Positions 2,276 to 24,983 of a stretch of DNA of 35,529 nt are shown here, one piece after another. This DNA comes from Tepidisphaeraceae bacterium (GTDB lineage: Bacteria; Planctomycetota; Phycisphaerae; Tepidisphaerales; Tepidisphaeraceae): positions 1-35,529 of the forward strand of contig JANWHF010000345.1 of assembly GCA_025450555.1 (NCBI GenBank), written 5' to 3'. Below the pieces are notes generated by a model. That model was given only the letters and a program-made list of their open reading frames with translations. It was not told where the DNA came from and searched no databases. Made by a program: the position numbers and the translations under genes. Within the stretch, counting starts at the first letter, position 1; each line of letters begins with the position of its first letter.

Positions 2276-3598
2276 TCAGACCGGCTCGGCATCCACGAGC
2301 ATGAATTTAATATCCGCTTCGCAAGCCAGCTTATCTTCAACAAAAGCCTTGCAACGAACGTGTCCAGTGCGGCTCTTCACGCGCACCGCCACCGCTTCCA
2401 AGAGCAGTTGATCCCCTGGCACAACCGGATGTCGCATCTTCACCTTATCCATACTCAGCAGGACCGCAAGTTTCCCGGTGTGTTCCAGCTTCTGGCTTAA
2501 AAGCAGGCCACCGAGCTGAGCCATCGCCTCGACAATTAAGACGCCGGGCATGATGGGGGTGCCGGGGTAATGCCCCTGAAAGAAGATGTCGTTGAAGGTC
2601 ACGTTTTTGATGCCGACCGCCTTCTCGTCGCCCTGAATTTCCAGGACGCGATCGACCAGCAGCATCGGATACCGATGCGGCAAGATCCTCTGAATCCGGC
2701 GGATGTCCATGGCCGCATCGCGGTGGACCAACTGCTCGCGCTGATAATTGGCTTCCTGCTCGAGCAACCGCCGGGCAAGCATGTGATTGAGGCGGTGGCC
2801 GCTGCGAAATGCGATGATCCGCCCGCGGATCGGCCGGCCGACCAGCGATAGATCGCCGATCATATCCAGCACTTTGTGCCGGGCACATTCATCCGCAAAA
2901 CGGAACTGGTTCTCGATCGGCCCATCTTTAGCGATCACCAATAGCTCTTTGGGAGACAAATGCTTGCCTAGGCCGCGGGCGCGCAGCTCGCGGGCCTCTT
3001 CTTCGAAGACGAACGTGCGAGCGGGGGCAAGTTGCGAGACGAAATCATCGCCGCCCAGGCGAAAACTGAATGTCTGATGGCCGACCGGTTGAGCAGCCTC
3101 GAAATCGTAAACCAGCTCAAGCCGATCAGTGGGGCCCGGCAGGGCCGCTAAAGTCGCGCCATCGGCCGTCACCTGAACGGGCTTGCGGATGATGAGCGGC
3201 GTCAGCGCCTCTTCCTGCTCGACGACACCGGCCTCTTCAATGGCATCGACAAACCCCCGGCTGCTGCCATCGCCGCCCGGAATCTCACCGACCTCTCCGC
3301 CAGCGACCTTCACCACCGCATTGCTGATGCCCATTCCAGTCAGGGCCGCCAGGCAATGTTCGACCGTTTCGACGAATAATGTGCCGTTACGTAAACATGT
3401 ACGCCGCGGGCGGTTAAGAACGTTGGCGATCAGGGCAGGGATGGTGGCAACCTTGCCGTCCTGCTCGCGGACGAAGGTGATGCCGGTGTTGGGACCCGAG
3501 GGCGCAAAGGTGAGCGTGGCCGTCTCACCCGAGAACAGCCCGGGGCCTACAAATGATGCCTCGCGGGAAACCGTCTTTTGTCGTTCGATTACAGCCAC
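2276..3598 (-). CDS. lpxC-fabZ: LpxC-FabZ fusion: UDP-3-O-acyl-GlcNAc deacetylase / 3-hydroxyacyl-ACP dehydratase
   Basis: This is a bifunctional enzyme of 440 residues. Residues about 8-280 are LpxC, the zinc deacetylase that commits the pathway to lipid A. The zinc ligands His81 ('VETVEHCLAAL'), His241 and Asp245 ('ECARHKVLDMIGDL') are present, and so is His268 ('SGHRLN'). Residues about 298-440 are FabZ, the hot-dog dehydratase, with 'ILPHRYPMLLVDRV', the catalytic His343 in 'FFQGHYPGTPIMPGVLIVEA' and Glu357. The start is a GTG at 3598, with GAGCGGAA just upstream. The fusion is known in several Gram-negative lineages, including Bacteroidetes and planctomycetes. It is first in an operon with lpxA, so the organism is expected to make lipid A. 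Confidence 0.96.
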   Translation of the reverse strand: MAVIERQKTVSREASFVGPGLFSGETATLTFAPSGPNTGITFVREQDGKVATIPALIANVLNRPRRTCLRNGTLFVETVEHCLAALTGMGISNAVVKVAGGEVGEIPGGDGSSRGFVDAIEEAGVVEQEEALTPLIIRKPVQVTADGATLAALPGPTDRLELVYDFEAAQPVGHQTFSFRLGGDDFVSQLAPARTFVFEEEARELRARGLGKHLSPKELLVIAKDGPIENQFRFADECARHKVLDMIGDLSLVGRPIRGRIIAFRSGHRLNHMLARRLLEQEANYQREQLVHRDAAMDIRRIQRILPHRYPMLLVDRVLEIQGDEKAVGIKNVTFNDIFFQGHYPGTPIMPGVLIVEAMAQLGGLLLSQKLEHTGKLAVLLSMDKVKMRHPVVPGDQLLLEAVAVRVKSRTGHVRCKAFVEDKLACEADIKFMLVDAEPV

Positions 3599-8611: not shown

Positions 8612-9625
8612 TTAGTCCATGGTGTCCAATGCACTCAGGTGCCGCACCACGCTTCGACCGAGTGCGCGCAGGTTGTAGCCGCCTTCCAGAGCGCTGACGA
8701 TTTTGCCGCCGCAATGTGCATTGGCCGCTTGCCCCAGCAACTCAGTCATCTGCCCAAACCCGGCTTCGCTGAGATTGATCTGCGCCAGCGGATCGTCGCG
8801 ATGCCCATCAAATCCCGCGGAAATCAGCAGAAACTCGGGTTTGAATGCGTCCAAGGCTGGCAAGACTTTTTCATGAAATGTTGAGATGTACTGGGCATCG
8901 CCGACGCCGGGGTTCATGGGCAAATTAAGTGTAAAGCCCTTACCTTTGCCGATACCTGTTTCCCGGGCGAATCCGCTGCCCGGATACAGCGTGCGCGGGT
9001 CCTGGTGCAGGCTGATAAAGAGGACACTGGGATCCTCTTCAAAGACGGCCTGGGTGCCATTGCCATGATGCACGTCGAAATCAACGATGGCGACTTTGCC
9101 GATGCCGTGCGCCTGCTGAAGATATCGGGCCGCGATCGAGATATTTGCAAACAGGCAGAATCCCATCGCCTGACCTGGCTCGGCATGATGCCCCGGCGGG
9201 CGAACCGCCGCGAAAGCGCGGGCCGCTTTTCCGCTGGCCACCGCATCGCAGCAGGAAATCAGTGCTCCGACCGCTGTCATGGCAACTTGAAAACTCTCTG
9301 GTCCGACGGGTGTGTCACCCTGATCCAGCACGCCGCCGCCCATGGCGCAAACGCGGCGGACATGTTCGATGTGCTCGCGCGGATGCACTGCCAGGAGCCA
9401 ACGCTCATCGGCTGGCGTTGGCTCGGGAAGCTCGATCAGCTTGCGGCGAGCCGTCTCCATCGTTCCCAGGTCAATTGAAAAATCGGGAAAGGGATCGGAA
9501 GAATCGATCAACTTCGCTTGACGCATGGCGCGGGCGATAGCGCGAATCCGATCGGGCCGCTCAGGATGATGCGGGCCGGTCTGATGAAGTGCGAATCGCG
9601 GGCTGGAACAGAAAGCGGTGGGCAT
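8612..9625 (-). CDS. Histone deacetylase / AcuC-like zinc deacetylase
   Basis: This 337-residue protein covers the full arginase-deacetylase fold. The active-site pair His146-His147 lies in 'VRPPGHHAEP'. The zinc ligands are Asp184 and His186 in 'IVDFDVHHGNGTQ' and Asp273 in 'SAGFDGHRDDPL', and the catalytic Tyr317 is in 'LEGGYNLRAL'. Bacterial members remove acetyl groups from lysines (AcuC, acting on acetyl-CoA synthetase) or from polyamines. The partner cannot be told from sequence. The ATG at 9625 fits the family start. It appears monocistronic, bounded by repeat elements on both sides. Confidence 0.94.
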   Translation of the reverse strand: MPTAFCSSPRFALHQTGPHHPERPDRIRAIARAMRQAKLIDSSDPFPDFSIDLGTMETARRKLIELPEPTPADERWLLAVHPREHIEHVRRVCAMGGGVLDQGDTPVGPESFQVAMTAVGALISCCDAVASGKAARAFAAVRPPGHHAEPGQAMGFCLFANISIAARYLQQAHGIGKVAIVDFDVHHGNGTQAVFEEDPSVLFISLHQDPRTLYPGSGFARETGIGKGKGFTLNLPMNPGVGDAQYISTFHEKVLPALDAFKPEFLLISAGFDGHRDDPLAQINLSEAGFGQMTELLGQAANAHCGGKIVSALEGGYNLRALGRSVVRHLSALDTMD

Positions 9626-17197: not shown

Positions 17198-19261
17198 TCA
17201 TGGCGTTCCACCGATTTCGATTTCATCGGGGGCAAGTGGGTCGTCGATGACTCTCTTCTTTCTCGCGGGGACCTGCGAAACGGGACGGTCCCCGTAACCA
17301 TACGTCGCAGCCATGTCGAAATAGGCTTCCCCGCGGCGCGAGACGTCATTGACGATGACACCCAAAACCGTTGCCCCGACGGAAACCAGTCCTTCATTGG
17401 CCAAGCGGGCAGCTTTACGCATCGATTGCCCTGCGCGAAGCACCAGCAACGTGAGATCGCAGCAGGCGGCGATGATGCGCGCGTCGGCCAATCCCATCAC
17501 CGGCGGCGCATCGACAATCACCTGGTCATACTTGTCGGCCAGCGTTTCCAGCATTTCGGAGAAGGTCGGGCTGTTGAGCAACTCGGCGGGATTCATCGGC
17601 TTGATGCCGCAGGGCATCAGGTACAGATTCGCAACCGGCGTCACATGAATCGCCGCCTCGAGCTGCGCTTCTTCCCGCAGCACCGCACAAAGCCCCAGCC
17701 GACCGTCACGGACACCAAAGACCGAATGCTGCCTCGGGCTGCGCAGATCGGCATCAATCAAGAGCACGCGCTTGCCGGCCTGCGCCATGACACAGGCGAG
17801 GTTCGCCGCCGATGTGGTCTTTCCCTCGGCCGGCGAGGGCGAAGTCACCAGAATTGTCTTGGATCGGTCCTTGGGCGCGCCAAAGTAGATGGCTGTTCGC
17901 AGGGATCGATAAGCCTCGGCCACGTCGCTGCTCGGGTCCATCACCACCTTCTGCCCCGCCACAATTTGGCTCGCGCCGCCGGGGATTTGCGGGATCACGC
18001 CAAGCACCGACGAGCGCACGGCAGCGCGAATCTCTTCAGTAGATCGGAGGCGGTCGTCCATCCAGTCGCGTCCCCATGCAAGTGTCACGCCAGCAACCAG
18101 ACCAAGCATTAATGCGATGGCCAGCGTGCGAAGCGGGGCGGGATAGGACTTGCGGGCAATAGAAGCCGACTGGAAAAAGTCGATGTTTACGTCGCCGGCG
18201 GCGTTCTGAAGGTTCACGTCATGGATGCGCGTTTCCAGCGTATCGACGAGCCTTCGCTGGCGGTCGGTGTCGGCTTGCAGCCGGGCATACTCGGCGATCT
18301 TCGCGCTGACTTCGACCGCCTTTCTGTTCTCCTCGTCGAACTGCTTTTGCAGATCATCCCGCAAGGCTTGTGAACGCAGATACCGGCGCTGCAAGGCATC
18401 CGCATAACCCGATGAGAGGACTTCCAGCCGCTGCCGCGCTGCGACAACTGCCGGATGGTTCGGCAGATACCGCTGCTGCAGCTCCTCAAGCCGCTGCTGC
18501 AGTTGGAGGATGTCCATCCGCAGCATCTGCTCGTCTTCGGAGCTGACCAGCACATTGCCCGGCGAGGTCATCGCGCGTACTTCGGGTGGCACCGCCTTGG
18601 CGGCGGCTTCGTAATCCTGCTTATCCTTGAGCACCTGCGCCCGCATGGACTCCAGCGATTGCGAAATCGTAGCGAGCTGTTGGAAGACGACGTTCTGCTG
18701 GTCTTTGCCGCTGAGCACCCCGTACCGCGACTCCAGATCGGCCATTTTCGCCGTCGTTGCGGCCAGGCCCTGGTTCACGCCATTCAATTCGGATTTGTAT
18801 GCCTCCAGCACGTCGGCGCTGTTGGACCGCTTGTGCGGGCGCGTCTGCCAACTGATATAATTATCGATAATCGCATTAACAATGATCGGAGCCTCGTCGC
18901 GATAAGGCGTCTCGAAGGCAACTTCGATCGTGTCGTCCTTGCGGCCGACATCGACCTCCATGTTGTTGCGCAGGTCTTCCAGCGCCGCTTCGGAATCAGT
19001 AAAGGTCTTAAGATCCCTGACCGTCTTCGCCTTGGGAAGATTGGCCGGCGTGCCCAGCGCGCCTGCCAGGACATCGCGCGCCATGATCTTTTCGCGCTGG
19101 GTATAGAGGAAATTCGCGTATTGCCCGACGTCTCCATTGTCTCCGGCGAGGCGCGAGCCAGCCGGCTGCACGGTGAAGATGCCGCGGCTGGTGTAGCGTT
19201 TTTGCGCGGTCGAGATAAAGACAATTGCCAGCAACAACGCAACAATCACGGGCGCGATCAC
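17198..19261 (-). CDS. Exopolysaccharide tyrosine autokinase (Wzc/BY-kinase type)
   Basis: A chain-length-determinant (Wzz) region with two membrane segments (about 3-18 and 378-396) flanks a long periplasmic coiled coil (about 150-345). A cytoplasmic BY-kinase domain follows, with Walker A 'TSPSPAEGKTTSAANLA' (473-489), Walker A' 'LLIDADLRSP' (500-509) and Walker B 'QVIVDAPPVMGLADARII'. The tyrosines near the C-terminus ('EAYFDMAATYGYGD') are the likely autophosphorylation cluster. It controls polymer length and export in capsule or exopolysaccharide synthesis. The GTG at 19261 is the first conventional start, but it falls only just before the first membrane helix; coding clearly continues upstream (see 19262-19390). 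The nearby surface protein on the same strand may share the matrix role. Confidence 0.92.
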   Translation of the reverse strand: MIAPVIVALLLAIVFISTAQKRYTSRGIFTVQPAGSRLAGDNGDVGQYANFLYTQREKIMARDVLAGALGTPANLPKAKTVRDLKTFTDSEAALEDLRNNMEVDVGRKDDTIEVAFETPYRDEAPIIVNAIIDNYISWQTRPHKRSNSADVLEAYKSELNGVNQGLAATTAKMADLESRYGVLSGKDQQNVVFQQLATISQSLESMRAQVLKDKQDYEAAAKAVPPEVRAMTSPGNVLVSSEDEQMLRMDILQLQQRLEELQQRYLPNHPAVVAARQRLEVLSSGYADALQRRYLRSQALRDDLQKQFDEENRKAVEVSAKIAEYARLQADTDRQRRLVDTLETRIHDVNLQNAAGDVNIDFFQSASIARKSYPAPLRTLAIALMLGLVAGVTLAWGRDWMDDRLRSTEEIRAAVRSSVLGVIPQIPGGASQIVAGQKVVMDPSSDVAEAYRSLRTAIYFGAPKDRSKTILVTSPSPAEGKTTSAANLACVMAQAGKRVLLIDADLRSPRQHSVFGVRDGRLGLCAVLREEAQLEAAIHVTPVANLYLMPCGIKPMNPAELLNSPTFSEMLETLADKYDQVIVDAPPVMGLADARIIAACCDLTLLVLRAGQSMRKAARLANEGLVSVGATVLGVIVNDVSRRGEAYFDMAATYGYGDRPVSQVPARKKRVIDDPLAPDEIEIGGTP

Positions 19262-19404: not shown

Positions 19405-19778
19405 AAAAGTGACACTCCCGCGGATCCTGGATCCTTGTGAAATGCGAGCATCAGACTACTTCCGCGCCGCCATCCAGAGCAAGTGCAAATCCATTGCGTG
19501 GCCCGACGGCTAAAGCGTATCTTCGGCACATTCAGGATAAACGGCCGGAGTAACTTCGGCACCTCAATGAAAACGCTACGACTTGCCGCAAAAGTCCAAT
19601 CTTCCCCGACGAGCTTGCGGTATTGGATGCGAATCAGTCAAAAGCCGAGATGTGATCGCGATCCGGCAATTTTGGCGTAGCCGAATCGTGTATGCTGCTG
19701 TTAAATATTGCGCAATCGGCGACATCCTTCATCCTGGGTCTTGAAGGGCGTGCGCCGGGCGGGAAAGGACATTTCGGA
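19405..19778. other. Divergent intergenic region before the ubiquitin-like operon
   Basis: About 370 nt lie between the autokinase and the conjugation operon. It must hold promoters for both, but no strong -35/-10 pair was found; TATGCT near 19690 is a weak -10 candidate. A start at 19692 would add 29 residues to the modifier, but those residues do not fit a beta-grasp protein and have no ribosome site. Confidence 0.45.
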
Positions 19779-20048
19779 ATGGGGATGGTCAACGTTCAGG
19801 TGTGGGATGCCACGGGTGCTAAGCGGCAGGAGGTTCAGATGCCCGATGACGCCCCGATCAATCGCATCCTGGCGGTGCTGATCGAGAAGATGAAATTCCC
19901 GCAGTATGCCCCCGACGGGCAGCCGCTGAGCTACAAGTTCCACCACCGCGCTTCAGGGAAACAATTGCTCGATGAACAATGCCTTGGAGACGTCGGCGTG
20001 CGCGACGGCGATGTGCTGCGCCTTCAACCGGAAATAACCGCGGGATGA
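19779..20048 (+). CDS. YukD/EsaB-like ubiquitin-like modifier (beta-grasp)
   Basis: An 89-residue beta-grasp protein that is probably the modifier conjugated by the downstream enzymes. It opens with strand 'MVNVQVWDATGAKRQEVQMP', continues with the helix 'INRILAVLIEKMKF', then 'LSYKFHHRASGKQLLDEQCL' and a final strand 'VRDGDVLRLQPEITAG'. The chain ends Ala-Gly directly before TGA, so a C-terminal glycine is exposed without processing. The ATG at 19779 is chosen with GGAAAGGA about 10 nt upstream; the ATG at 19785 is possible. The E1-like gene follows after 1 nt. YukD-type proteins also work in type VII secretion, but no ESX genes are here, and the E1/E2/RING/JAB neighbours favour a ubiquitin-like role. 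Confidence 0.85.
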   Translation: MGMVNVQVWDATGAKRQEVQMPDDAPINRILAVLIEKMKFPQYAPDGQPLSYKFHHRASGKQLLDEQCLGDVGVRDGDVLRLQPEITAG

Positions 20049-20049
20049 C

Positions 20050-21345
20050 ATGGCTCTTCACGATTTAATCACCTTCGGCGGATCATCGGGCGAGCCCCCT
20101 GCCGCTCCCGCAGCGCCGGCGCCCATCCGCGTCAGCCATGCCGAGACGCAGGCAGCGCAAGATGACCGCTTTCATCGCTTTGGCCTGATCAGTTGGTGGG
20201 ATCAAAAGAAGCTGGCCAATGCCCGGGTGCTGGTGGTTGGAGCCGGCGCTCTGGGCAATGAAATCGTCAAGAACCTCGCGCTTCTGGGCGTCGGCAACAT
20301 CCTGATTGCCGACATGGATCGGATCGAGAATTCAAATTTGTCGCGATCGATCCTGTATCGCGCTTCGGACAACGGATCATTCAAAGCGGAAGTGGCTGCC
20401 CGCGCTGCGCGCGAAGTTTATCCAGAGATCAAAGCCGAGGCGTTTGTCGGAAACGTTGTCTACGACCTGGGCATGGGCGTCTTTCATTGGGCCGACGTGG
20501 TCATCGGAGGTCTGGACAATCGCGAAGCTCGGCTGGCGATCAATCGCAATTGCTGGCGCGTCAATCGGCCATGGATCGACGGCGCGATCGAGCAGATTCA
20601 GGGAACCGCGCGGGTCTTCGCGCCAGATGGCCCCTGTTACGAATGCACGATGTCTCAGACCGACTGGAAGCTGCTGCAAAACCGACGGTCTTGCAATCTG
20701 CTGTCGCGCCCGGAGATGGAAGCCGGCAAGACGCCAACAACGCCGACCATCGGCTCAATCATCGCTGGTGTGCAATGTCAGGAAGCGATCAAGCTTCTTC
20801 ATGGCATGGAAACGATCAAAGGGCGCGGCTGGGTCTTTAATGGCATGACCACCGATTCCTACGCCATCGAATTTCAGCGCAAGGAAACCTGCTACAGCCA
20901 CGAGATTCTGGAGCAGATTATGCCGCTGGATGCGCGGGCGGATTCGATAACGGTCGGTGAGATATTGACCGAAGCGCGCCGGCTGCTGGGAAGTGGTACC
21001 GAGCTTGAACTGGGTCGCGATGTGCTGGAAAAGCTCGTCTGTCCGCGCTGTGGCCGCGAAGAGCAAGCTTTCATGTCGCTGGGAAAAGTCCCGGCTGATC
21101 GCGCGACCTGCCCGCATTGCCCGGACTCTCGGCGGGAAGTCGTCACCTTCTACAAGATTCGCGGGAACGAAACATTTCTCGATCGCACGCTGGCGCAGAT
21201 TGGCGTGCCTGCGTTCGACATCATCATCGCCCGCTGTCGCGATCGCGCAATCGGGCTCGAATTGGCCGGAGATGCGCAGGCGGTCTTGAAGTCCCTGGGA
21301 CCGGCCGACATTGCCTCCAGCCAGGAGGGACTGGCATGGGAATGA
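20050..21345 (+). CDS. E1-like ThiF/MoeB-family adenylating enzyme with zinc-ribbon extension
   Basis: This is a 431-residue E1-like protein expected to adenylate the C-terminal Gly of the modifier. The Rossmann nucleotide loop is 'VVGAGALGNEIVKNL' (62-76). It is followed by 'IADMDRIENSNLSRSILYR' (Asp88, Asn95, Arg99), Lys112, and 'GGLDNREARLAINRNCW' (Asp155). 'CYEC' (196-199) is the first zinc knuckle of the family. Cys215 ('RRSCNLLSR'), ahead of 'TPTTPTIGSIIAGVQCQEA', is a candidate thioester cysteine (inference). Beyond residue 280 an extension of about 150 residues carries a second pair, 'CPRC' (331-334) and 'CPHC' (354-357), which looks like a zinc ribbon and may recruit the E2. The first 40 residues are Pro/Ala-rich. 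It overlaps the JAMM gene by 10 nt. Confidence 0.93.
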   Translation: MALHDLITFGGSSGEPPAAPAAPAPIRVSHAETQAAQDDRFHRFGLISWWDQKKLANARVLVVGAGALGNEIVKNLALLGVGNILIADMDRIENSNLSRSILYRASDNGSFKAEVAARAAREVYPEIKAEAFVGNVVYDLGMGVFHWADVVIGGLDNREARLAINRNCWRVNRPWIDGAIEQIQGTARVFAPDGPCYECTMSQTDWKLLQNRRSCNLLSRPEMEAGKTPTTPTIGSIIAGVQCQEAIKLLHGMETIKGRGWVFNGMTTDSYAIEFQRKETCYSHEILEQIMPLDARADSITVGEILTEARRLLGSGTELELGRDVLEKLVCPRCGREEQAFMSLGKVPADRATCPHCPDSRREVVTFYKIRGNETFLDRTLAQIGVPAFDIIIARCRDRAIGLELAGDAQAVLKSLGPADIASSQEGLAWE

Positions 21346-22145
21346 AAGGGAAGAAACGTCGAGGAGCGTCGTCTGAAGCGTCCGCTGTGGTTGATCCCCT
21401 GGCCGGAACTGCTGCGCCGGAGGATGCGATCGACGACGGCGTCGAAGACGAAGATCACCATCTGGCAGCCCAATGCCGCTTTGATGATGATCCGGCTCCT
21501 GCCACGGAGCAGACTGACCTCGAGGCGCCGGCAGATGAATCGCATGTCGCGCCTGGTTGCCCGGATGCGGACGCCATCGATCTTTCGGAGTTTCCTCTTA
21601 GGCTGATCGGTGAAGATCTTCCGGATCGGCAGAAAAAGTATCAGGTCATCGTCGATTCGGCAGTGATGAATGAGATTCATCGCCACGGCAAGTCCAATAC
21701 CGACGTGGAACTCTGCGGCGTCTTGATCGGAAACGTCTACCAGGATGGCGCAGCACCCTACCTTTTGATCGATGCTTCAATCCGGGGAAATGCCGCCGTG
21801 AGCAAAGGCACACAGGTCACTTTTACTTCCGAAACCTGGACGCGCATTCACGAAGTGCTGGAGCGCGATTATCCCGATCATCGAATCGTCGGCTGGTATC
21901 ACACGCATCCCGGCTTTGGCATCTTCCTGTCAGGAATGGACCTTTTCATCCAGGATCATTTTTTCAACGCGCCCTGGCAGGTGGCTTTCGTGTACGACCC
22001 GATCGGCGGCGATGAGGGAATGTTCGTCTGGCGAAAGGGCAAATCGCTTCGCGAGCCTCACCTGCTGACCGGCGATACGCGCGGCGCGCGAGGTGGGTGG
22101 CTGCATCGCGGCGTGGATTGGATCAAGCATCGCTTCGCTTCATGA
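21336..22145 (+). CDS. JAB/MPN (JAMM) metallopeptidase, predicted deconjugase
   Basis: The ATG at 21336 has AGGAGG at 21323-21328, and the gene starts inside the end of the E1-like gene. The protein has 269 residues. The first 90 or so are acidic and low-complexity, likely disordered. The MPN domain follows with a complete JAMM motif: Glu125 ('DVELCGVLIG'), His189 and His191, Ser199 and Asp202 ('YHTHPGFGIFLSGMD', pattern HxHx7SxxD). Zinc binding and isopeptidase activity are therefore expected. Because the modifier already ends in Gly, the likely job is removing it from targets rather than maturing it (inference). Its stop overlaps the next start as ATGA, which shows translational coupling. 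Confidence 0.94.
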   Translation: MGMKGKKRRGASSEASAVVDPLAGTAAPEDAIDDGVEDEDHHLAAQCRFDDDPAPATEQTDLEAPADESHVAPGCPDADAIDLSEFPLRLIGEDLPDRQKKYQVIVDSAVMNEIHRHGKSNTDVELCGVLIGNVYQDGAAPYLLIDASIRGNAAVSKGTQVTFTSETWTRIHEVLERDYPDHRIVGWYHTHPGFGIFLSGMDLFIQDHFFNAPWQVAFVYDPIGGDEGMFVWRKGKSLREPHLLTGDTRGARGGWLHRGVDWIKHRFAS

Positions 22146-23443
22146 GTGCTATGGCCGAAGGCAAGATCATCATCACGCATGAAGATCTGCACAGCCGGCG
22201 GGTGGAAAACCGCCTGCGCGAGCAGCAGGCGATCGCGCGCAATCGCCTTTACGCTTCGCTTGAGGAAGACGCGCTGCCGGTCGCGACGACGAAGCCGACT
22301 CGATTCTGGCATGGGTCAGCATTCATCATGGCGGTCTTTGGACTGCTCGGCGCGATGCTGGCGTGGTGTGCGAGCGTGGGATTTGCCGCAGTTCTTTTGC
22401 ACGGCGGAGGAAAAGTGATCGGCTATCGCCCTACCGCCAAAGCTGATGCGCTCGCGCTGATCAAGGCGTTGAACGACATTCAGGTCGCGCAGGACGCGAG
22501 CCGGTATTCACCGGAGCAGGCGAAGCTCGCCGCCGATGAAGTGCGCGCCAGTGGTCGCGAGAATCCTTACTTTGCAGTCGCAACTGATTCGCGGCTTTCC
22601 GACGCGCAACGCGAAGTAAAGGTCGGCGAGCTCGATGACTCGGCCCGATACAGCGCTTTCCTCGTCGAAGTGCTGCGATATGGAATCTGCGGCCTCATGA
22701 TCGCCATGTGCCTGGCGATGGCCGAGCTGATCGGCCAGCGGAAATTCGGACAGGCGTCGCGCGTCGGGGCAGTCGGCGCGTTCCTTGGACTTATCGGCGG
22801 CGTTATTGCCACGCTGCTTGCCGGACGAATCGCGACCTGGGCCGGCAATATGGTCAGTCACGGCTCAATCTCCATTCGACAAATGGCTTCCGATTCTGCC
22901 GTCTGGGCTGCCCTTGGCCTTTCGCTTGGCCTGGCGTCAGGCCTGGTCATGCGGAACTGGAAGAAGCTGGGCATTGGCCTGCTCGGTGGACTTGTCGGTG
23001 GCGCGATTGGCGGCGCTCTCCTTGGGCCGATGCGGCGATGGACTCATGATCCCCAGATTGCGCAATTGGTTGCGCTGGTTGTCATTGGCATTGTCGCCGG
23101 GGCGGGAACGGGCCTGATTGAACACGCAACGCGCTCCGGCTGGTTGAAGGTGACAACCGGCATCATCGCCGGCAAACAATTCATCGTTTACCGAAACCCG
23201 ACCTACATCGGCAGCTCACCCGATTGTCAGATTTATCTGTTCAAAGATCCAAAAGTCGGCAAGCGCCACGCGGCGGTTCATATCACGCCGGCGGGAATTG
23301 AACTTGAGAATCTGCCATTGGGAATTTCGACAATGGTCAATGGGCGCGCGGTCGATCGCGTTCCACTGAAAAACGGCGATCGAATCGCAATTGGCAATAC
23401 GCAATTTGTCTTCCAGGAAAAGCGACCCAGCGCAGCGAGGTGA
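22142..23443 (+). CDS. Polytopic membrane protein with C-terminal FHA domain
   Basis: The ATG at 22142 overlaps the JAMM gene stop (ATGA). The protein has 433 residues. The N-terminus (1-55) is charged and helical. A membrane segment at about 58-86 is followed by a loop of about 85 residues, then five or so Gly-rich segments at about 172-196, 205-228, 253-270, 274-296 and 307-326. The C-terminal FHA domain (about 339-427) shows 'TYIGSSPDCQIYL', 'GKRHAAVHI', 'TMVNGRAV' and 'LKNGDRIAIGNTQFVF'. The usual Gly-Arg and Ser-x-x-His of phosphothreonine readers are Gly-Ser and Gly-x-x-His here, closer to the YscD-like type, so binding may not need phosphate. I do not recognise the membrane part. It may tether the conjugation machinery to the membrane (inference). 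Confidence 0.85.
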   Translation: MSAMAEGKIIITHEDLHSRRVENRLREQQAIARNRLYASLEEDALPVATTKPTRFWHGSAFIMAVFGLLGAMLAWCASVGFAAVLLHGGGKVIGYRPTAKADALALIKALNDIQVAQDASRYSPEQAKLAADEVRASGRENPYFAVATDSRLSDAQREVKVGELDDSARYSAFLVEVLRYGICGLMIAMCLAMAELIGQRKFGQASRVGAVGAFLGLIGGVIATLLAGRIATWAGNMVSHGSISIRQMASDSAVWAALGLSLGLASGLVMRNWKKLGIGLLGGLVGGAIGGALLGPMRRWTHDPQIAQLVALVVIGIVAGAGTGLIEHATRSGWLKVTTGIIAGKQFIVYRNPTYIGSSPDCQIYLFKDPKVGKRHAAVHITPAGIELENLPLGISTMVNGRAVDRVPLKNGDRIAIGNTQFVFQEKRPSAAR

Positions 23444-23451
23444 TTGGAAGT

Positions 23452-24123
23452 ATGGCGACCCTTTTGATGGAACTTGGTAGTCACCGCCGCGCCGGCCAGC
23501 TTTCCGGGCGCGTCCTGATCGGCAGCCTTCCGATCAACACGATCCGCGTCGAGGATTCGGTGGTGTCGAAGGTGCATGCCTGGATCGGAAAAGATCGCGA
23601 TGGTTTTTATGTTGCCGACGCAGGCAGTCGCACCGGCACGTTCGTGAATGGACAGCGCGTGTCGTCACGACAGCCGCTTCGCGATGGCGATGAGATTCGC
23701 GTTGGCCCGTTGCGATTGTGGATTAGTCCGAATCTGTCGGCACCGCCCGATGCAGAGCCTATTGACTTGACGCCCAAGCCATTGAAAGGCGCCCAGGTTC
23801 AAGGCGGCGTGTTCCACGAATGTCGGTGCGGCGCGCCAATCTGGGTGCCGGCGGGATTCGATCTGCGCAGCGGCCAATGCCGGTTTTGCGGGCGGCCGAT
23901 TGCAGGAAGCGAATTGACCGTTGCTGTTGAGGAAACAAGTAGAGGTGCTGCATTTGCAGATGCGGGGCTATGCATCTGTTCGATCTGTCAGTCGCCGATC
24001 GAGCGGGCGGAAGCGACGCACGGATGTCCGGCATGTGGGCTACTCTTTCACGAGGAATGCTGGAAAGAAAATCGAGGGTGTGCTGCATATGGATGCGCGC
24101 AGGTCGGGGTCACGGACGGATGA
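23452..24123 (+). CDS. FHA - zinc ribbon - prokaryotic RING protein, candidate E3 ligase
   Basis: A 223-residue soluble protein. The FHA domain (about 1-92) has 'VLIGSLPINTIRV', 'SVVSKVHAWI' (Ser39, His42) and 'GTFVNGQRV' (Asn66). The Arg that usually follows the first Gly is Ser. A zinc ribbon uses Cys124, Cys126, Cys143 and Cys146 ('CRCGAPIWVPAG...CRFCG'). A RING-like treble clef at 176-215 has Cys176, Cys179, Cys192, Cys195, His200, Cys203, Cys210 and Cys215, spaced C-x2-C-x12-C-x2-C-x4-H-x2-C-x6-C-x4-C, as in the prokaryotic RING families. Within a locus with E1 and E2 it is the natural E3 candidate. The ATG at 23452 has GAGGTGA 8 nt upstream; a GTG at 23440 would overlap the previous stop. 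Confidence 0.87.
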   Translation: MATLLMELGSHRRAGQLSGRVLIGSLPINTIRVEDSVVSKVHAWIGKDRDGFYVADAGSRTGTFVNGQRVSSRQPLRDGDEIRVGPLRLWISPNLSAPPDAEPIDLTPKPLKGAQVQGGVFHECRCGAPIWVPAGFDLRSGQCRFCGRPIAGSELTVAVEETSRGAAFADAGLCICSICQSPIERAEATHGCPACGLLFHEECWKENRGCAAYGCAQVGVTDG

Positions 24124-24138
24124 GAATACGATCTGGAT

Positions 24139-24236
24139 AGCCCCGTTTATGATAGCCGCGACGCGCCAGCGGAGCGCTTTCTCAGAGCGCAGGGGAAAGC
24201 ACTCCGCTATCGCGTCGCGGCTAACTAAACGGGGCT
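24139..24236. repeat. 98-nt inverted repeat between RING and E2 genes
   Basis: Arms 24139-24180 and 24196-24236 are near-perfect reverse complements, starting AGCCCCGTTTA and including TAGCCGCGACGCG, around a 15-nt loop. It lies 15 nt past the RING gene stop and 42 nt before the E2 start. It could attenuate or process the operon transcript. The TAGCCGC core resembles the ends of the element at 1169-1313. Confidence 0.85.
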
Positions 24237-24278
24237 GACAGCGGTCGCTGTAAGATTTTGAGCCGGAGCAGTGCATTG

Positions 24279-24983
24279 ATGTTGGAAACAACCACCTTAC
24301 CCAGAACGATTTCCTTTGCGTGTCCGGGCTGCGGAAAACGTTTTTCGGTGCCATCGGGCTACGCGGGTCGAAAGGCCAACTGCAAGTTCTGTCATGGGCC
24401 CATTGTCGTTCCAGCCGCGCCTGAGCCGCCCGTGAACGCGCCGATTCCATCGCCTTCGGCTTCGCAAAGATTTGCGCCGCTGGAACCGGTGTCGCAGGAG
24501 CATAATCAGAAGTTGCCGATGCGCACCCGTCGGCTGATTGCCGAAGCGCGGCAAATCGAGCAGGCGTTTTTGAACTCGTCGATAATCAAGGTGACGCCCA
24601 TCGCTGGCGATCCGCCGGAGGTTTACAAAATTGAATATCGAATCAAAGGTCTGCGAAAAGGCTGGTTTGGCCGGCCACGTGTGTGCAGCGAGCATCGCGT
24701 GGAGATTCGTCTCACCAGCGAATACCCCCGCCTGTCGCCGCAGTGCAAGATGCTCACGTCGATCTTTCACCCCAATATTGACGCCGCCACCATCTGCGTG
24801 GGAGATCATTGGACGGCCGGCGAACGTCTGGTCGATTTGATCATCCGCATTGGAGAGATGATCGCCTACCAGGCTTACAACATCAAAAGCCCGCTTGATG
24901 GCCAAGCCGCGATGTGGGCAGATCTTCACGCCAACCGGCTTCCGATCGATCCGCGGGTGCTGAGCGCAGCCGAATTGAGTTGA
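24279..24983 (+). CDS. E2-like ubiquitin-conjugating (UBC-fold) protein with N-terminal zinc ribbon
   Basis: This is a 234-residue protein. A zinc ribbon at 12-45 has Cys15, Cys18, Cys35 and Cys38 ('CPGCGKRFSVPSGYAG...CKFC'). A Pro-rich linker leads to a UBC fold at about 82-220: 'VEIRLTSEYPRLSPQCKM', then the HPN motif at 164-166 and catalytic Cys173 in 'IFHPNIDAATICVGDHW', then the conserved tail 'NIKSPLDGQAAMW'. HPN and Cys are both intact and one residue closer than in eukaryotic E2s, so thioester transfer of the modifier is expected. The zinc ribbon resembles that of the preceding RING protein. The ATG at 24279 is preferred (GGAG 11 nt upstream); a TTG at 24258 is possible. It is the last gene of the conjugation cluster. 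Confidence 0.9.
   Translation: MLETTTLPRTISFACPGCGKRFSVPSGYAGRKANCKFCHGPIVVPAAPEPPVNAPIPSPSASQRFAPLEPVSQEHNQKLPMRTRRLIAEARQIEQAFLNSSIIKVTPIAGDPPEVYKIEYRIKGLRKGWFGRPRVCSEHRVEIRLTSEYPRLSPQCKMLTSIFHPNIDAATICVGDHWTAGERLVDLIIRIGEMIAYQAYNIKSPLDGQAAMWADLHANRLPIDPRVLSAAELS

Follow-up and report, generated by a model that had tools for sequence, protein, structure and literature searches.

The window, a 35,529-nucleotide stretch of DNA from a Tepidisphaeraceae bacterium, contains six genes on the forward strand in the order UBL, E1, JAMM, membrane FHA protein (FHA/TM), FHA-RING and E2. The UBL gene (19692-20048, +) encodes a YukD-type modifier (Pfam YukD, 9.9e-11) whose likely start at ATG 19779 gives a protein of 89 residues with the C-terminus ...PEITAG. 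In the family alignment PEITAG is invariant and either terminal or followed by a few variable residues, as expected for a modifier that is trimmed by JAMM where needed, and it would provide a C-terminal Gly usable by E1. Burroughs et al. are said to have proposed in 2011 that YukD-like UBLs might be conjugated. The E1-like adenylating enzyme (20050-21345, +) has a ThiF fold (Pfam ThiF, 3.4e-53) and a candidate catalytic Cys, in RRSCNLL, that is conserved in the alignment. The JAMM/JAB deconjugating metalloprotease (21342-22145, +; Pfam JAB, 2.3e-13) has an intact HTHP...SGMD motif, and its family keeps HTHP, or in some members HSHP, together with SxxD. Downstream of the membrane FHA gene lies the E3 candidate (23440-24123, +; start ATG 23452 or GTG 23440), in which an FHA domain is followed by a zinc-ribbon-like segment and a RING of Prok-RING_1-like type, and which has no C-terminal membrane helix here. 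Its Pfam matches are FHA at 6.1e-17 and Prok-RING_1 at 6.2e-5, the latter under that model's curated cut-off, and the RING zinc ligands are kept across the family alignment. The last gene encodes an E2-like conjugating enzyme (24258-24983, +; likely start ATG 24279; Pfam UQ_con, 9.7e-9) with the motif HPN...ICVGDHW, of which H171, P172, N173 and C180 are invariant in the family. A 102-bp palindromic element occupies 24137-24238, between the RING stop codon and E2; with about 40 similar sites in the same genome (79 matches, both strands), it is REP/BIME-like.

The locus therefore has the E1 adenylation domain, E2 catalytic Cys, JAMM metal motif and RING zinc ligands of an E1/E2/RING/JAMM-type operon. 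From these intact catalytic motifs the UBL, E1, JAMM, RING and E2 look active, and the gene set looks like a complete ubiquitin-type tagging machine, with tag, E1, E2, RING E3 and tag-remover.

The membrane FHA gene, assigned from its Pfam matches, homologues and topology, spans 22142-23443 (+), from ATG 22142 to TGA 23441-23443, and encodes 433 residues; homologues in 30 further loci rule out a chance open reading frame. Direct reading of the junctions gives ATGA overlaps both between E1 and JAMM (21339-21348, GGAATGAAAG) and between JAMM and the membrane FHA gene (22139-22148, TTCATGAGTG), where the start of the gene overlaps the JAMM stop codon. At its 3' junction (23437-23460, GAGGTGATTGGAAGTATGGCGACC) the TGA is followed by 8 nt and the RING ATG at 23452, and the alternative RING start at GTG 23440 would produce a GTGA overlap. 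An initial sequence-only reading, which had placed the gene in a conjugation operon and had described ATGA coupling to JAMM and an 8-nt gap to RING, proves exact on both junctions.

Topology of the membrane part and the FHA pocket

The membrane FHA protein begins with a conserved, predicted cytoplasmic motif, ITxDDLxSxxVDxxLxxQxA (residues 8-32; 22163-22237; all coordinates within the gene are on the + strand). Hydropathy places TM1 at residues 59-80 (22316-22381), TM2 at 176-195 (22667-22726), TM3 at 208-228 (22763-22825) and TM4 at 252-271 (22895-22954). TM5 (residues 275-296; 22964-23029) carries the glycine zipper GGLVGGAIGG and is the most conserved membrane segment, and TM6 (residues 306-327; 23057-23122) contains the invariant residues G320 and E327. 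The family-mean hydropathy likewise has six peaks, at residues 61-74, 178-194, 210-230, 252-264, 281-294 and 306-324. Between TM1 and TM2 lies a lineage-specific extracytoplasmic loop, L1 (residues 81-175; 22382-22666), assigned from alignment and hydropathy. The mean loop charges across the family follow the positive-inside pattern: the short loops L2 (1.8 K+R versus 0.3 D+E) and L4 (1.3 versus 0.1) are basic, as is the segment after TM6 (3.2 versus 1.7), and L5 is acidic (0.5 versus 1.2). This pattern places both the N-terminal tail and the FHA domain in the cytoplasm, and the protein is predicted to be N-in/C-in. An AlphaFold2 model of low confidence (mean pLDDT 60, pTM 0.42) has six long helices, a C-terminal beta domain and a helical hairpin in L1; derived from an alignment three sequences deep (the window, L012 and L013), it backs the topology as support and not as proof.

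These results bear out much of what had been read from the letters of the gene: about six glycine-rich helices were expected, the FHA domain is predicted inside and not outside the cytoplasm, and the membrane part had been called an unrecognised family. Indeed, when residues 1-330 were compared with Pfam, no family apart from the FHA families matched more than one of 22 members. Within the membrane part, the alignment is best conserved at the TM5 glycine zipper and at W75, G320 and E327. That the zipper helices are so well kept, together with W75 and E327, suggests that this part is more than an anchor.

The C-terminal FHA domain (residues 333-427; 23138-23422) has the invariant residues W334, K345 and H376. 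Its top Pfam match in the window is PF16697, the YscD cytoplasmic FHA (E = 9.5e-11), followed by PF00498 (E = 3.4e-10), and the FHA fold was recovered by Pfam profile in 22 of 22 homologues. Comparison with PDB sequences identified GarA and OdhI as the closest solved FHA relatives; both are soluble and keep GR, SRRH and NGT, motifs that the membrane FHA protein does not keep. When 31 homologues were aligned with GarA, the Arg of GR was found in none (Ser, Ala, Cys or Gly stands in its place), the Ser of SRxH in two and the Asn of NGT in none, and what remains of the pocket is the His (31/31) and a later Asn (30/31). In the window GR reads G-S, just as the earlier label of a Gly-Ser type FHA had it. 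The canonical phosphothreonine pocket is thus lost family-wide, and on these pocket residues a role as phosphothreonine reader was rejected: the membrane FHA domain very probably does not read phosphothreonine, although it could bind phosphopeptides by an unusual mode.

Loss of the pocket bears directly on a second proposed role, in which the protein would sense a signal, either through the extracytoplasmic loop or membrane core or by an FHA domain reading phosphothreonine, and would gate the E3. The FHA fold itself and a lineage-specific L1, about 90 residues long in the window's family and about 70-95 in several groups, are what such a sensor would be expected to have. However, the pocket is lost in 31 of 31 homologues, and L1 is dissimilar between groups and nearly absent in loci L060, L061 and L064-L067, which argues that sensing by L1 is no core function. 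With the loop optional and the pocket missing, the suggestion that a phosphorylated signal is sensed through this FHA domain is not supported, and we regard a sensor of either kind as quite unlikely.

A membrane protein with a cytoplasmic, pocket-less FHA domain has a precedent in SctD (YscD/PrgH/MxiG) of type III secretion systems (T3SS), whose FHA domains lack the phosphothreonine residues and have been read as phosphorylation-independent interfaces (PMC4045390, PMC3635987), that is, as docking surfaces. The architectures differ, SctD having an N-terminal FHA domain, one membrane helix and a large periplasmic domain, and the protein described here six membrane helices and then a C-terminal FHA domain; no secretion genes of the T3SS kind were found near the operon. 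Despite the PF16697 match, topology and operon content speak against membership of the SctD/YscD family.

Conservation of the operon and its relation to known systems

Whole-genome protein searches in a phylum sample of 294 Planctomycetota genomes and a class sample of 298 gave matches to the membrane FHA protein in 9 and 23 genomes, respectively. One class match (G294) covers only the FHA region and was not counted, which leaves 22 class genomes with the gene. Within the window's own family, 17 of 25 sampled genomes besides that of the window had a match; the relatives JADYZN010000033.1 and JADLBV010000026.1 are Phycisphaerales MAGs. In most of 30 homologous loci, drawn from across the phylum, the genes follow the arrangement UBL-E1-JAMM-FHA/TM-RING-E2, all in one direction and separated by short gaps; missing parts are explained mostly by contig ends and by a few splits. 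In one split set (L051) RING and E2 do not come after the membrane FHA gene and E2 lies on another contig, and in another (L045) the membrane FHA gene stands directly behind UBL.

Loci found through the membrane FHA gene say nothing on whether it is obligatory, so we reversed the search and used the E2 alignment as an independent bait. In the class sample, with cognate E2 matches at E below 1e-60, both genes were present in 22 genomes, E2 only in one, the membrane FHA gene only in none and neither in 275 (Fisher 2e-32, a descriptive value only, as it ignores shared ancestry). The phylum sample gave 9, 2, 0 and 283 for the same categories (Fisher 1e-15, likewise descriptive and blind to shared ancestry). 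The one class exception, G429, is a 65%-complete MAG; of the two in the phylum, G051 is an 84%-complete MAG with its E2 near a contig end, and G171 has a truncated copy of the gene in an operon remnant (L129, 7536-8129) that retains only the 3' half, with the truncated gene, several RINGs and E2. More distant E2 matches (among L130-L147) belong mostly to E1-UBL-E2-JAMM operons that have no membrane FHA gene; in two of these (L139, 3195-4493, -; L140, 4718-5995, -) a soluble FHA protein whose pocket looks canonical is encoded just after JAMM. Close relatives of the operon thus keep the gene and only these distant operons do not, which makes it the hallmark of one sub-type and not of all bacterial UBL operons. 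Its place in the operon, first proposed from the window, is borne out by the coupling there, by contiguity in relatives and by its presence with the cognate E2 in 22 of 23 class and 9 of 11 phylum genomes, and the sequence data strongly support the membrane FHA protein as a core member of the UBL-E1-JAMM-FHA/TM-RING-E2 conjugation operon. Across eight genomes, distances of E1 and JAMM follow those of RpoB (r 0.82 and 0.81, respectively), the pattern that vertical inheritance would give, and no plasmid-borne relatives of the operon were found.

Operons with E1, E2, RING and JAB genes and a YukD-like Ubl were predicted in 2011 (Burroughs, Iyer and Aravind, as cited in PMC4197634 and PMC7159879), with related operons in Planctomycetes, Acidobacteria and Actinobacteria (PMC4197634). 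As those citing papers present it, the set is the same, a YukD-like UBL, E1, E2, RING E3 and JAB/JAMM; the difference, as far as they describe those operons, is that the membrane FHA gene is here found to be near-obligatory in one sub-type. The archaeon Caldiarchaeum subterraneum likewise has Ub, E1, E2, RING E3 and an Rpn11-type JAMM in one operon, but this five-gene set lacks a membrane FHA subunit, and the UBL here is YukD-like (PMC4197634). Bil is also a bacterial UBL conjugation system with E1, E2 and JAMM, but it consists of four genes, BilABCD, with a tandem-UBL BilA, and is anti-phage, whereas the present operon has a single UBL, a RING E3 and the membrane FHA protein. With its single UBL and six-gene order the operon does not belong to Bil, and the BilD model gave only a partial match to E1. 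Bub, another bacterial UBL conjugation system, was compared through its description in PMC13373217. Our literature search found no description of the membrane FHA gene, with a mention in Burroughs et al. 2011 possible, and our profile searches covered the phylum Planctomycetota; as far as checked, a membrane FHA subunit that is near-obligatory and has lost its phosphothreonine pocket is new.

The RING partner and the Wzc-type neighbour

In relatives, the FHA domain of the RING protein has the pocket Arg in 15 of 16 sequences, the Ser in all 16 and the Asn in 9; the window's RING FHA is the sole one of the 16 in which Ser replaces Arg (GS versus GR). Since the RING FHA keeps Arg and Ser and the membrane FHA has no pocket, the two domains differ in kind, and the RING FHA may read phosphothreonine in relatives. 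Pairing of the two FHA domains was considered as a general mechanism and discarded as not required: several loci among L057-L067 have a RING without an FHA domain yet retain the membrane FHA gene, an indication that its FHA needs no FHA partner. Several tandem RING paralogues occur per operon in L060, L064, L066 and L067, and these point to several E3 specificities.

Two C-terminal membrane helices are predicted for the RING protein in 24 of 25 relatives and are absent only in the window and L038. The E3 of this operon type would thus normally be a membrane protein, and in the branch of the window and L038, where RING has no helices, the operon encodes no membrane part other than the membrane FHA protein.

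The RING paralogues also bear on the possibility that the membrane FHA protein is itself the main substrate, as had been suggested at the outset, with UBL attached to a cytoplasmic lysine and removed by JAMM so as to switch the membrane part on or off. K345 of the FHA domain (AGKxF) is the one invariant lysine in all homologues, the aligned position in GarA is Ser, and the gene stands directly behind JAMM, or in L045 directly behind UBL. A lone invariant lysine may just as well have a structural role or lie in an interface, however, and the several RING paralogues suggest more than one target; we consider a main-substrate role improbable.

Upstream of UBL and divergent from it lies a gene (17198-19261, -) for a Wzc/CpsD-type polysaccharide co-polymerase with a BY-type tyrosine autokinase (NCBIfam TIGR01007, 171 bits against a cut-off of 108). 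The gene adjoins UBL in the window and in 12 other same-family loci, 13 of the 17 with upstream sequence, and no conserved genes were found downstream of E2 in same-family loci. Further away in the window are genes for a histone-deacetylase-family protein (8612-9625, -; Pfam 8.8e-98) and for LpxC fused to a FabA-like (FabZ-type) dehydratase domain (2276-3598, -).

This neighbour suggests a function in polysaccharide export, in which the Wzc-type tyrosine kinase would be regulated or tagged and the membrane FHA protein would couple both at the membrane. In addition to the shared adjacency and the lack of anything conserved downstream of E2, the distance matrix of the membrane FHA protein correlates with that of Wzc at r 0.84 versus 0.66 with RpoB (full-length RpoB, eight genomes); a correlation with Wzc given RpoB of 0.94 proved to be an artefact of partial RpoB sequences and was discarded. 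The excess is small and so is the sample, and we do not take it as strong evidence. Moreover, outside the window's family the Wzc-type gene does not lie close to the operon. Wzc occurs in several paralogous copies per genome, also in genomes that lack the operon, and paralogues and contig ends blur a comparison of Wzc loss with operon loss. A role in polysaccharide export therefore seems distinctly doubtful, and the Wzc-type kinase is best treated as a lead, a candidate pointer to the target or substrate that belongs to the context and is no proven part of the system.

A conserved chromosomal neighbour also argues against the glycine-zipper membrane part being an effector, such as a pore or channel, held under UBL control as in an abortive anti-phage system. 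The GGxxGGxxGG helices and the invariant membrane-edge residues E327 and W75 would suit an effector, and other bacterial UBL systems, Bil and CBASS, are anti-phage (PMC13373217, PMC10097602). On the other hand, PADLOC gave no match for UBL, FHA/TM, RING or E2 and only generic models for E1 and JAB, there was no sign of a defence context around the operon, and both the tracking of RpoB by E1 and JAMM and the absence from plasmids are unlike a mobile defence system. An effector of this kind is very unlikely.

A putative membrane platform

Topology, pocket loss, co-occurrence and the RING helices are best reconciled if the membrane FHA protein is a dedicated inner-membrane platform for the conjugation machinery, acting through a phosphate-independent FHA interface; we put the probability of this reading at roughly 0.55. 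We infer docking, partner and substrate as follows. The six glycine-rich helices would fix the protein in the inner membrane, with the N-terminal motif and the C-terminal FHA domain facing the cytoplasm. Lacking the pocket, the FHA domain would most likely offer a docking surface that does not depend on phosphate, as has been suggested for its counterpart in T3SS SctD. The protein would tether one or more of UBL, E1, JAMM, RING and E2 to the membrane, where tags could then be attached to, and removed from, substrates located at the membrane or close to it. In most relatives a RING E3 with its own two helices would share this location, and in the window and its nearest locus the membrane FHA protein would be the sole membrane part. 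Of the three roles put forward in the sequence-only reading, placing the pathway at the membrane is the best fit, and the two C-terminal helices of 24 of 25 RINGs speak for the membrane as its site; the role itself stays conditional. Counting against a platform, a second anchor would in part be superfluous where RING carries helices of its own, as it does in most relatives; the signs that the membrane part does more than anchor, and the chance of an unusual mode of phosphopeptide binding, weigh on the same side.

A more specific version would be a membrane-embedded UBL ligase complex. In it, E2, RING and JAMM would be held together at the inner membrane by a scaffold from a new six-helix family that bears a pocket-less FHA, and its targets would be envelope machinery, the neighbouring Wzc kinase for example. 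Eukaryotic membrane E3 complexes have an analogous layout, but we hold this version to be speculative and unlikely to be right in full.

The near-constant presence of a six-helix, pocket-less FHA protein in the gene set suggests the cell membrane as the site at which tagging is organised. The vertical look of the operon, its own membrane subunit and its mostly membrane-anchored RINGs would together point to a housekeeping role, in contrast with the best-studied bacterial UBL systems, Bil and CBASS, which are anti-phage. UBL tagging in bacteria would then have a housekeeping, membrane-centred form, and a defined protein and interface would offer a handle for finding UBL substrates.
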